Source: Alphaproteobacteria bacterium
GTDB lineage: Bacteria; Pseudomonadota; Alphaproteobacteria; RF32; CAG-239
Length of the DNA stretch: 64,000 bases
Direction: 5' to 3'
Assembly (NCBI GenBank): GCA_015062285.1
Contig: SUUY01000003.1
Span: forward strand, 124,001-188,000
Below are positions 51,893 to 61,407 of the stretch, in pieces. The notes under the pieces are model-generated. The model had not been told where the DNA came from and ran no database searches. It saw only the letters and a program-made list of their open reading frames with translations. Within the stretch, counting starts at the first letter, position 1. Each line of letters starts with the position of its first letter. The translations under genes were made by a program, and so were the position numbers.

Positions 51893-51907
51893 TTGGCGGA
51901 GAGGGTT
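51893..51907 (-). repeat. Copy of the tRNA-Ser(UGA) 3' end
   Basis: Fifteen bases (ATTGGCGGAGAGGGT on the plus strand) are identical to the tail of the real tRNA-Ser at 52077-52091, including the CCA end and acceptor-stem half. The next bases diverge. It could be the displaced end of an integration event. Confidence 0.6.
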
Positions 51908-52002
51908 CGATTACTCTCACTTTTGTTCGAGTTGCTTCGTCAGATATCAGTTTCACCGACCGGCGTACTTCCGTCCGCCTTATCTTCCTCGTCGAACTCA
52001 CT

Positions 52003-52035
52003 CCCTGTAAGTTCAAATCTCTACCTTCCGCACAT
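52003..52035 (+). repeat. Inverted shadow of the tRNA-Ser(UGA) 3' region
   Basis: On the plus strand this reads CCTGTAAGTTCAAATCTCTA... and ends TTCCGCACAT. It aligns with the T-arm and acceptor 3' half of the minus-strand tRNA-Ser(UGA) next door (about 26 of 31 positions), in inverted orientation across the terminator. Its T-loop is TTCAA where the tRNA has TTCGA. The distal base pairs of the T-stem do not form, so it is not an intact tRNA. Confidence 0.7.
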
Positions 52036-52079
52036 CAATAAACAAACACCCACTCTTTTGAGTGGGTGTTTGTTTATTG
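52036..52079. terminator. Palindromic terminator between tRNA-Ser(UGA) and its shadow
   Basis: Two perfectly complementary 20-base arms (52036-52055 and 52060-52079, loop TTTT) sit between the tRNA tail and the shadow. The right arm includes part of the encoded CCA of the tRNA. It works in both directions. Confidence 0.8.
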
Positions 52080-52167
52080 GCGGAGAGGGTGAGATTCGAA
52101 CTCACGGAGGGATCGCTCCCTCGACGGTTTTCAAGACCGCTGCATTAAACCGCTCTGCCACCTCTCC
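52078..52167 (-). tRNA. tRNA-Ser(UGA)
   Basis: A full 90-base serine tRNA: acceptor GGAGAGG paired with CCTCTCC, D-loop AGAGCGGTTTAATGCA, anticodon loop CTTGAAA with anticodon TGA, long variable arm (GAGGGAGCGATCCCTC) and T-loop GTTCGAATC, with CCA encoded. It has no neighbouring genes in an operon. An open frame on the opposite strand through it is an artefact. Confidence 0.96.
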
Positions 52168-52255
52168 AAAGGTGTATGTTCAAAATAATTATGGAGAAAA
52201 CCGTCCTTGAAACTTCGTTTCAACCTCTCCGGTTTGGACCTTCGGTCATCTGCGA

Positions 52256-52302
52256 TTCCAAGACCGCTGCATTAAACCTTTTCGTCACCTCTCCAAAGGT
52301 GT
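52256..52302 (-). pseudogene. Partial, shuffled copy of tRNA-Ser(UGA) 5' half
   Basis: This minus-strand segment repeats the real tRNA-Ser 5' half plus its upstream ACACCTTT (52178 region): GGAGAGGTG, then TTTAATGCAGCGGTCTTG, but with several changes and no variable or T-arm. Farther left (52193-52255) are scrambled tRNA-like pieces with small inverted repeats (GAAAC-TTC-GTTTC, GACC-TTC-GGTC). It cannot fold as a tRNA. Confidence 0.65.
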
Positions 52303-52432
52303 CATCAAATCTGACAAACAGTCTTTTAACCTAAAGATTTATAAAGGTCAAGATATTTTTATAAAAAAATAAATATTTACTTTTTGTCTATTTGTGTTAA
52401 GCTTTCGACAAACAAAAATAATTATAAACATT

Positions 52433-53436: not shown

Positions 53437-53462
53437 AAACCCCTAGTAAATTCTAGGGGTTT
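53437..53462 (+). terminator. Hairpin after the MutT-like gene
   Basis: A 10-bp perfect stem AAACCCCTAG/CTAGGGGTTT (53437-53446, 53453-53462) 4 bases past the stop. The T-run is short (TTTAG), so it may be a moderate terminator. The same CCCCTAG motif recurs in the next terminator at 53547. Confidence 0.6.
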
Positions 53463-53516
53463 AGCGTTTAAAAATCTCAATAAAAAACCGCCTAAAAGTT
53501 CAGCCCAAACTCCCTT

Positions 53517-53546
53517 TTCGAGAGTTCAAACCTCAAGTCCCACAAC
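53517..53546 (+). repeat. Inverted shadow of the tRNA-Val(UAC) 3' region
   Basis: The plus-strand sequence (TCGAGAGTTCAAACCTCAAG...) is an inverted, diverged copy of the tRNA-Val tail across the terminator: in an ungapped 33-base comparison 24 bases match. The T-loop has TTCAA instead of TTCGA. Most mismatches fall in the acceptor half. The T-stem can form only its first three pairs. Confidence 0.68.
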
Positions 53547-53590
53547 AATTAAAAACACCCCTAGGACTTACCTAGGGGTGTTTTTTAATT
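53547..53590. terminator. Palindromic terminator between tRNA-Val and its shadow
   Basis: Arms 53547-53565 and 53571-53590 (AAAAACACCCCTAGG against CCTAGGGGTGTTTTTT, loop ACTTA) form a bidirectional terminator; the pairing continues with one extra base into the AATT beside the tRNA. Confidence 0.85.
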
Positions 53591-53665
53591 GGTGGGCGCT
53601 GAGAGGTTCGAACTCCCGACCCTCTCGGTGTAAACGAGATGCTCTTCCAGCTGAGCTAAGCGCCC
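53590..53665 (-). tRNA. tRNA-Val(UAC)
   Basis: A 76-base tRNA: acceptor GGGCGCT/AGCGCCC with discriminator A and encoded CCA, anticodon loop TTTACAC with TAC, anticodon stem TCTCG/CGAGA, T-loop GTTCGAACC. It lies in a short non-coding region between the MutT-like gene and the 172-aa gene. Confidence 0.96.
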
Positions 53666-60001: not shown

Positions 60002-60952
60002 GTGAAGACACCAACACATTGGAAAACAATAAATTTATTATCTTTAGTTTTATACCCGTTAGGCTGTCTGTATGGCTTAGCAACAGCCACTCGTTTATGG
60101 CTAAAAAAATCACATCGTGTTGAAGCGTGTGTCATTTGTGTCGGAAATCTCACTGCCGGAGGAACCGGAAAAACTCCGGTAGCAGTATCATTGGCAAAAA
60201 TGTTGCAACAACATGGCAAAAACCCGTTTTTTGTCAGTCGCGGATATGGCGGAAAGCTAAAAGATGTTATGGTTAATCCTTCACGCCACACTGCTCAAGA
60301 AGTTGGTGACGAACCTCTTATTTTGGCTCGTCAGGCTTCGGTTGTAATCAATCCCAATCGTTATCAAGGTGCTTTATTAGCGGCACAAGAACGCGCTGAC
60401 TTTGTTATTATGGACGATGGATATCAGAATCCCTCATTATATAAAGACAAATCAATTCTTGTTGTTGACGGAAATGTCGGCTTTGGAAACGGAATGTGCA
60501 TTCCTGCCGGACCGCTTAGAGAATTTAAGACTCTGGGATTAAAACGAGCCGATGCTATTGCTCTGATTGGAGAAGATACACACAAACTGACCGATTCTTT
60601 TGGCAACCTTCCGGTATTTAGAGCAAAAATCAAGGCTGTTTCGCCCTCGCCTTTAACTTATGATGTTGTAGCCTTTGCCGGAATTGGCAGACCGGATAAA
60701 TTCTATTCTTCGCTCAAAGAATGTGGTTTTAATGTAATTGCCACCAAAGATTTTCCGGATCATCATTATTACAACGAAAATGAGCTTGAAGAAATGTTGG
60801 CTCTTGGTAAAAAACACAAATCTCCGGTTTATACAACGGCCAAAGATTTTGTAAAGATCCCCCCTCACTTGCAAAGTAAGTTCAAGGTACTGGAAATAGA
60901 GATTGAATGGGAAAATCCGGCAGAAGTTATTAGCTTTTTGCTTCACCATTAA
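60002..60952 (+). CDS. lpxK: Tetraacyldisaccharide 4'-kinase
   Basis: The 316-aa kinase phosphorylates the lipid A precursor. It begins at a GTG right after the waaA stop. Markers: N-terminal hydrophobic segment, P-loop GNLTAGGTGKTPVAVS, SRGYGG, DEPLILAR and DDGYQNPSLYKD. The last codons run straight into the next terminator. Together with waaA and the acyltransferase it forms a lipid A operon. Confidence 0.95.
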   Translation: MKTPTHWKTINLLSLVLYPLGCLYGLATATRLWLKKSHRVEACVICVGNLTAGGTGKTPVAVSLAKMLQQHGKNPFFVSRGYGGKLKDVMVNPSRHTAQEVGDEPLILARQASVVINPNRYQGALLAAQERADFVIMDDGYQNPSLYKDKSILVVDGNVGFGNGMCIPAGPLREFKTLGLKRADAIALIGEDTHKLTDSFGNLPVFRAKIKAVSPSPLTYDVVAFAGIGRPDKFYSSLKECGFNVIATKDFPDHHYYNENELEEMLALGKKHKSPVYTTAKDFVKIPPHLQSKFKVLEIEIEWENPAEVISFLLHH

Positions 60953-60993
60953 AAAAGCTCCCCAAAGGGAGCTTTTTTTTATGGCGGAGAGTA
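60951..60993. repeat. Terminator plus tRNA-Ser 3'-end copy A
   Basis: This 43-base unit (hairpin GCTCCC/GGGAGC with A- and T-runs at 60951-60980, then TGGCGGAGAGTA at 60982-60993) is an almost exact direct repeat of 61287-61332, the terminator and 3' end of the real tRNA-Ser(GCU). It also terminates lpxK. Confidence 0.75.
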
Positions 60994-61059
60994 TGTGCAA
61001 CTTTTGTGCAAGTTTTGTGCAACTTTGAGCCATTTTGTGCAAATTTGAGCCTATTTTGT
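60993..61059 (+). repeat. Short degenerate tandem repeats, about 10-11 bases
   Basis: Units TTTTGTGCAA (61002, 61013, 61033; partial at 60994) alternate with TTTGAGCC (61024, 61044) and a final TTTTGTT (61053). The pattern is roughly 10-11 bases per unit. There is no coding or CRISPR structure. Confidence 0.6.
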
Positions 61060-61100
61060 TAACCTAATTTCAACCAATCACCCAGACACTAGATACAACA

Positions 61101-61124
61101 AAACCCTAGATTTCTCTAGGGTTT
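61101..61124 (-). terminator. Terminator beyond tRNA-Ser 3'-end copy B
   Basis: A 10-bp perfect stem AAACCCTAGA/TCTAGGGTTT (loop TTTC) precedes a further tRNA-Ser tail copy. On the minus strand it would follow that tail as the terminator of the tRNA copy. Confidence 0.6.
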
Positions 61125-61127
61125 AAG

Positions 61128-61144
61128 TGGCGGAGAGTACAGGA
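61128..61144 (-). repeat. Copy B of the tRNA-Ser(GCU) 3' end
   Basis: Seventeen bases (TGGCGGAGAGTACAGGA) match the real tRNA-Ser(GCU) end (61321-61337) exactly; the next bases diverge. Confidence 0.65.
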
Positions 61145-61254
61145 TTGGGTACTCCCATAAATGGGGCCTCCTCGTGTCGTAAGTCTCAAACTTCGTATTT
61201 CGCTAAGCGATTTGCTAAGCTCAACACTCGTTTTCGCCAACTATCCACTCCGAA

Positions 61255-61286
61255 CCTTACAGGTTCAAGTCCTAACCTCCTCACAT
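61255..61286 (+). repeat. Inverted shadow of the tRNA-Ser(GCU) 3' region
   Basis: Plus-strand ACAGGTTCAAGTCCTAACC and CTCCTCACAT form an inverted, diverged copy of the real tRNA-Ser(GCU) T-arm and acceptor 3' half (GACTCGAACCTGT in antisense). The T-loop is TTCAA where the tRNA has TTCGA. Two distal T-stem pairs are lost. Confidence 0.7.
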
Positions 61287-61319
61287 AAAAAAAAGCTCCC
61301 CAAAGGGAGCTTTTTTTTT
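61287..61319. terminator. Palindromic terminator between tRNA-Ser(GCU) and its shadow
   Basis: Arms AAAAAAAAGCTCCC and GGGAGCTTTTTTTTT around a CAAA loop (61287-61300, 61305-61319). It works in both directions and is repeated at 60951. Confidence 0.85.
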
Positions 61320-61320
61320 A

Positions 61321-61407
61321 TGGCGGAGAGTACAGGACTCGAACCTGTGCATCGGTATCCCGATGACGGATTAGCAATCCGCTGCATTACCACTCTGCCA
61401 ACTCTCC
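61321..61407 (-). tRNA. tRNA-Ser(GCU)
   Basis: A serine tRNA with acceptor GGAGAGT/ACTCTCC, anticodon loop TTGCTAA (GCT), anticodon stem CGGA/TCCG, variable arm (CATCGGGATACCGATG) and T-loop GTTCGAGTC; CCA is encoded. An open frame on the opposite strand through this tRNA is not a gene. Confidence 0.96.

Follow-up and report, generated by a model that had tools for sequence, protein, structure and literature searches.

The inverted fragment, or shadow, that adjoins tRNA-Ser(GCU) in the 64,000-nucleotide stretch analyzed here (the window, G000:C6:124001-188000) is, with a probability that we put at roughly three in four, the 5' arm of a repeat unit that resembles RtT and is built from the tail of its tRNA. 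In tRNA sense, a unit opens with a terminator; the tRNA 3' half then appears in inverted form (the shadow), positions 49-57 follow in direct orientation, and behind a structured core come positions 58-76, again direct and with CCA. The parts together measure roughly 190 bases (range about 145-250 nt). The core, about 70-105 nt long, splits the direct tRNA copy exactly at the T-loop step 57|58, and each unit matches its own host tRNA. The genome that carries the window (G000) measures 1.42 Mb, is 100% complete, and has as its closest named relatives gut Alphaproteobacteria MAGs, part of which are labelled Azospirillum sp.

The unit behind tRNA-Ser(GCU)

The host gene is intact and occupies positions 61321-61407 on the minus strand (ARAGORN; Rfam tRNA, 62.5 bits). 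Right behind its CCA end lies a palindromic, bidirectional-looking terminator (61287-61319; a 14-bp perfect inverted repeat with A and T tracts), and this is followed on the minus strand by the shadow (61253-61286). The shadow had been described before from its plus-strand letters, and these letters, ACAGGTTCAAGTCCTAACCTCCTCACA (about 61258-61286), are indeed an imperfect inverted copy of the tRNA 3' half. What the preliminary description overlooked is that the shadow forms one end of a larger unit (61128-61320), closed by a second, direct copy of the tRNA tail that runs from A58 to CCA (61128-61146, minus strand; 18 of 19 nt identical to the tRNA tail). Between shadow and tail copy, also on the minus strand, lie a direct copy of the 5' strand of the T-arm (AGGTTCG, 61251-61257), the last base of which is position 57, and a structured core of family B (GAGTGGATAGTTGG...GGGAGTACCC, 61147-61250, about 104 nt), recognized by the core-B model R2 and by covariation. 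The R2 match at 61139-61270 scores 143.3 bits, with the reservation that this member sits in the R2 training set. In the predicted RNA fold, the shadow pairs with the tail copy and the AGGTTCG copy pairs with the inverted T-arm.

The unit is followed by another terminator (61091-61127), so that the order in tRNA sense reads CCA, terminator, shadow, direct T-arm, core, A58-CCA tail, and second terminator. All 37 nt of this second terminator are identical to the flank of L080/L047, which are one locus and were counted once, and in this relative (G003, L047) the same terminator stands directly behind a tRNA-Ser(GCU) that has no unit, which provides empty-site evidence.

Two further features were observed nearby. 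At 60951-60993, adjoining the lpxK stop codon, a fragment made up of a terminator and 12 nt of the tRNA-Ser(GCU) tail forms a 43-nt direct repeat of 61290-61332 (77% identity without gaps), some 340 nt from the copy at the tRNA. Additionally, a short array of near-repeats of about 10 nt (TTTTGTGCAA/CTTTGAGCCA) occupies 60991-61052, between lpxK and the old terminator.

Units at tRNA-Ser(UGA) and tRNA-Val(UAC)

The shadows reported at two other tRNA genes of the window were also found. Behind tRNA-Ser(UGA) (52078-52167, minus strand; ARAGORN) lies a 184-nt unit with a core of family A (51894-52077, minus strand), identified by sequence, by the core-A model R1 and by its fold. Its parts, a shadow at about 52007-52037, a direct T-arm copy at 51993-52002, a core at 51913-51992 and a tail copy at 51894-51912, follow the same order as at tRNA-Ser(GCU), and R1, of which this unit is a training member, matches it at 51905-52018 (E 1e-17). 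The unit behind tRNA-Val(UAC) (53590-53665, minus strand; ARAGORN) is degenerate and extends over 53455-53589 on the minus strand; it comprises a terminator, a shadow (at about 53515-53549), a direct T-arm copy and a truncated core, with no tail copy, and R1 matches it weakly (53455-53531, 17.2 bits, E 0.08). Upstream of tRNA-Ser(UGA), the region 52190-52305 holds a partial direct copy of the 5' half of that tRNA (47 nt, 87% identical) together with an inverted piece of it, and no other tRNA of the genome has significant upstream copies in both orientations.

Frequency of units in the genus

For each of the 43 tRNA genes of G000, the 300 nt downstream of the gene were searched for the best inverted match to that tRNA, and the outcome was set against that of all swapped tRNA/flank pairs. 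Twelve of the 43 exceeded the 99th percentile (0.4 expected), as against one of 43 in the upstream-flank control. Units were then counted by a search, within 450 nt, for a second occurrence of the 19 nt at the tRNA's 3' end, allowing at most 4 mismatches. Such copies accompany 15 of 43 tRNA genes in G000, 12/34 in G002, 10/34 in G003, 10/37 in G005 and 15/36 in G008, two of the matches being non-units by eye (Leu-GAG in G000 and an adjacent tRNA-Ala in G002). Clear units therefore stand behind about 60 of the 184 tRNA genes in these five genomes of the genus, i.e., about a third, a count that leaves out the degenerate units at Val-TAC, Asp, Leu-TAA, Glu-CTC and His, all in G000. Exact or near-exact tandem units are found at Arg-CCT and Arg-TCT.

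R1 matched 10 of 385 Alphaproteobacteria genomes (its own family and a few small-genome lineages), R2 matched 8 of the same 385, and R1 found no match, its own genome excepted, among 349 genomes sampled from the phylum. Further core types, C and D (L002, L004, L016, L122, L127 and L163), are longer, bear hairpins and occur in both orientations; they are also found inside terminator stems, like small hairpin-targeting elements.

Covariation and strand of the structured molecule

Strong compensatory base changes were found in both core families, A and B, in alignments of 32 and 15 units, respectively. For core A, with 26 pairs in five helices, 87.7% of alignment cells are paired, compared to 28-37% with the partner slid; for core B the values are 97.9% and 38-57%, and the slid control allows for relatedness, although a structure derived from the same alignments tends to win in it. 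Double changes numbered 145 in core A against 44.5 ± 5.7 in shuffles, and 44 in core B against 12.8 ± 2.7, where the shuffles ignore relatedness. The closing helix of core A is Watson-Crick in half of the members and carries tandem G.A in most others, and one of its hairpins usually has a GNRA-like loop. Single-sequence folds of the Ser-GCU and Ser-UGA units gave an outer helix (shadow with tail copy), a T-arm hairpin and the core helices, at z = -2.16 and -2.13 for the two window units, a z of about -2 being modest.

The preliminary description had in view a short RNA of the plus strand that carries a pseudo-T-loop and receives CCA. The wobble asymmetry favors the other strand, since G-U pairs outnumber A-C pairs in tRNA sense (43 to 17 in core A, 28 to 4 in core B) and folding of the opposite strand predicts a dominance of A-C, which would be its own G-U. 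These counts suggest that it is the minus strand, in tRNA sense, that folds, as RNA or as single-stranded DNA.

Variation at position 57

The three window shadows were said to share a change of the tRNA G57 to A and a CCA end replaced by an ACA-containing tail. Both statements are literally correct for the window, where all three shadows read GTTCAA in place of the GTTCGA of the tRNA and the tails CACA, CACA and ACAACA are present, and neither extends to the genus as a rule. Across 59 distinct shadows of the genus, a host G57 is faced by C in 20 cases, A in 18, T in 16 (T corresponding to A57 on the other strand) and G in 1; in G000 alone the facing letter is T in 5, C in 4 and A in 3. A start resembling CACA/CAACA is found in only 18 of 61 units, and TGG, the retained CCA, stands near the shadow start in 30 of 61.

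In a position-by-position comparison of the 59 shadows with their hosts, with the conserved inverted T-arm as anchor, 35 mismatched at position 57 and 28 at position 58, compared to 2 at each of positions 54, 55 and 56. Random T-loop differences had been named as what would speak against a shared signature; position 57 is indeed commonly C, A or T, while positions 54-56 are kept, and A57 with an ACA tail is not supported as a signature. Because the core splits the direct copy at 57|58, the shadow bases opposite 57 and 58 fall in a helix junction, and position 57, facing the junction between two helices, is free to change. The shared G-to-A change is accounted for by the peak of mismatches at this junction-facing position. 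Given the letter frequencies of the genus and the genome, T in three of three window shadows is unremarkable (0.02-0.07, for a pattern noticed after the fact).

The contention of the preliminary description that the shadows are not independent decays stands: they belong to one element class, share its layout, and very likely form arms in a folded RNA. The shadow is a real element, not a decayed tRNA or a free-standing pseudo-T-loop but the 5' arm of a larger unit.

Proposed mechanism and expression

In the reading that we prefer, the inverted arm would pair with the direct tail from position 58 onward to form an outer helix and with positions 49-56 to form an inner hairpin, with 57 facing the junction, as in the predicted fold. 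The selected molecule would be a tRNA-sense RNA whose transcription either continues through the tRNA terminator or starts at an unseen promoter, and the tRNA 3'-end machinery may trim it at CCA, which is what has been reported for rtT RNA in E. coli. A strong palindromic terminator separates each window unit from its tRNA, and the stretch scanned showed no sigma-70-like promoter, both of which speak against easy expression. The number of copies could rise and fall as the repeated tRNA tails recombine. Arms might stay matched to their host through conversion between tail copies together with hairpin correction by template switching, or because pairing is under selection, and either would suffice.

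RtT RNA has been described as released from tRNA transcripts and detected on Northern blots (PMC4986893); a link to the stringent response has been reported, and in Actinobacillus the RNA was confirmed to be expressed (PMC4986893; PMC2965389). We infer that the units described here also yield processed RNAs; what the units do, and how cores change tRNA, we can likewise only infer. RtT itself is little explained, and the units offer a testable route to its function, either as an RNA cut from tRNA transcripts or as a parasite of tRNA tails. They also explain why genome annotation contains a class of what look like tRNA fragments.

Gain, loss and alternative explanations

In three cases, all with core B, a relative that lacks the unit has, right behind the same tRNA, the flank that otherwise comes after the last unit; these are Ser-GCU (the window versus G003), Asn (G003 versus G000) and Glu (G005 versus G002). 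Judged from these sequences, such pairs may have arisen when a unit inserted or when recombination between tail copies removed it exactly.

A possible alternative, which we consider somewhat doubtful, is that the cores are small non-autonomous mobile elements targeting T-arm-like hairpin loops, with the arms serving as landing sites at 57|58. Several observations are consistent with it. Cores of the same tRNA in different genomes are scarcely more alike than other cores (the three identity values are 0.72/0.69/0.67 for core A and 0.66/0.68/0.66 for core B), with no clear clustering either by tRNA or by genome; the Ser-GCU core of the window is 90% identical to the Gln-CUG core of G005, the arms differing; and a given tRNA gene can bear one core family in one species of the genus and another in the next (L044, L222, L191 and others), for example Arg-TCT (A or B), Ser-GCU (B or D) and Gln-CTG. 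In G657 (L319, L326, L328 and L331), core B is found away from tRNA genes in dispersed palindromes of the form GCCGGACTTGA...CCCGGCAATCC and also GTCATTGCCGGACTTGA...CCCGGCAATCC, but these are copies of one composite repeat and may reflect a single event. Against mobility, neither a target duplication nor an encoded enzyme was seen and no core-free shadow palindrome, i.e., a bare landing site, was noticed; the Y1/RAYT transposase (PF01797), considered as the mover, is absent from all 13 same-genus genomes searched, including G000. The bolder form of this idea, in which cores A and B move about as structured RNAs or single-stranded DNA elements, insert at 57|58 of T-arm hairpins and colonize different tRNA tails in turn, each new host tRNA serving as template for the arms, seems to us unlikely; if true, it would describe a parasite of tRNA tails that behaves like an intron and leaves the tRNA itself unharmed.

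Units standing free of tRNA genes (L108, L115, L109 and L120) had been considered as proof of transposition, a candidate that was dropped as the comparable unit L295 is better explained otherwise. L295 lies about 22 kb from its presumed host, tRNA-Gly(CCC), and the stretch between them (G000:C6:2487-24876; L009, L295) starts with a DUF6538/phage-integrase protein. This stretch is probably a genomic island inserted at the tRNA-Gly(CCC) tail that separated the unit from its host, and the case counsels against taking all tRNA-free units as transposed.

It is improbable that template switching at the palindromic terminator, by fold-back replication, made inverted tail copies that are now decaying and functionless. 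The process is known to create and mend hairpins (PMC8794818), can alone create paired arms in the absence of selection, and fits the order tail(+)/tail(-)/tail(+) centered on the terminator palindrome. It leaves unexplained the conserved cores and their exact position at 57|58, as well as the same layout in Enterobacteriaceae and the excess of G-U over A-C. Given the conserved cores, template switching is insufficient as a full account, although it could be the mechanism that keeps the arms matched.

Even less probable is an origin as remnants of integrative islands, as displaced tRNA 3' fragments (attR) left by tyrosine integrases. Direct tail copies do mark island ends (PMC4383910), and the apparent displacement of L295 by about 22 kb, along a stretch beginning with a phage-integrase gene, agrees with such a process; however, the inverted arm, the conserved structured core, the unit's own terminator, the length of about 145-250 nt and the exact tandem units at Arg-CCT and Arg-TCT are all alien to attR scars. 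Three independent chance decays with a coincident G57-to-A change can practically be dismissed, for although position 57 lies in a CpG, where C-to-T/G-to-A changes would be frequent, the swapped-flank control (12/43 versus 0.4) refutes them, and the mismatch peak at 57 and 58 only and the conserved cores also stand against them.

Comparison with RtT RNA and other known systems

RtT RNA, encoded by the 178-bp repeats of E. coli tyrT (RF00391, rttR), has reportedly been known since 1991 from the work of Bosl and Kersten, and beyond it almost nothing on tRNA-tail repeats was found in the literature. Two other systems share some traits with the units. Genomic islands in tRNA genes (tyrosine integrase; Islander) likewise use the tRNA 3' part and displaced tail copies. 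The units differ from them in having no enzyme, a size of about 190 nt, a conserved RNA-like fold and tandem identical copies; no integrase gene is found inside units, which at 145-250 nt are too short for one. REP/BIME elements with RAYT transposases are likewise short, dispersed, palindromic repeats, and some enterobacterial rtT-like sequences are part of BIMEs (PMC2965389), whereas the units are tied to tRNA tails in a genus whose 13 searched genomes have no Y1 transposase.

The resemblance to RtT extends to the layout as a whole. The E. coli tyrT/tyrV rttR sequence reads GGGGAAGG, AT.GAGAACCTT, a loop, AAGGTTCG, the core and then AATCCTTCCCCCACCACCA. In common with the units it has tandem arrangement behind a tRNA gene, an inverted copy of T-arm and acceptor, a direct T-arm, a structured core at 57|58, and an A58-CCA tail identical to that of the host tRNA. 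At the RtT loci examined (E. coli, Salmonella and others), the Tyr, Pro, Lys, Ser or Gln tail is that of the adjacent tRNA.

The core sequences differ. RF00391 matched 46 of 398 sampled Pseudomonadota genomes, G000 not among them; a search of G000 gave no RF00391 match, nor did the unit loci at E values up to 5 or 1. At the Rfam gathering cut-off, only tRNA was reached in the window and in the unit loci tested, and the families recovered at relaxed thresholds (E up to 5 or 1) were, besides tRNA, chance matches only. R2 did not find the E. coli and Salmonella RtT units, and R1 found them weakly (E 0.0009-0.006 in 120 kb), matches that may lean on the T-arm hairpin since R1 contains it. Also unlike RtT, the units stand behind about a third of tRNA genes, fall into several core families, and almost always have a palindromic terminator between tRNA and unit.

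Altogether, by the evidence of their sequences, the units are a divergent RtT-like family, equal to RtT in layout and falling short of the RF00391 score, and a distant homology is probable. They suggest a general building rule for RtT, in which the 3' half of the host tRNA is present in inverted and direct form and is split at 57|58 by a folded core, a rule common to RtT and to a separate, abundant alphaproteobacterial family with several different cores. The class, RtT, is already known, but the layout rule and its scale are surprising.
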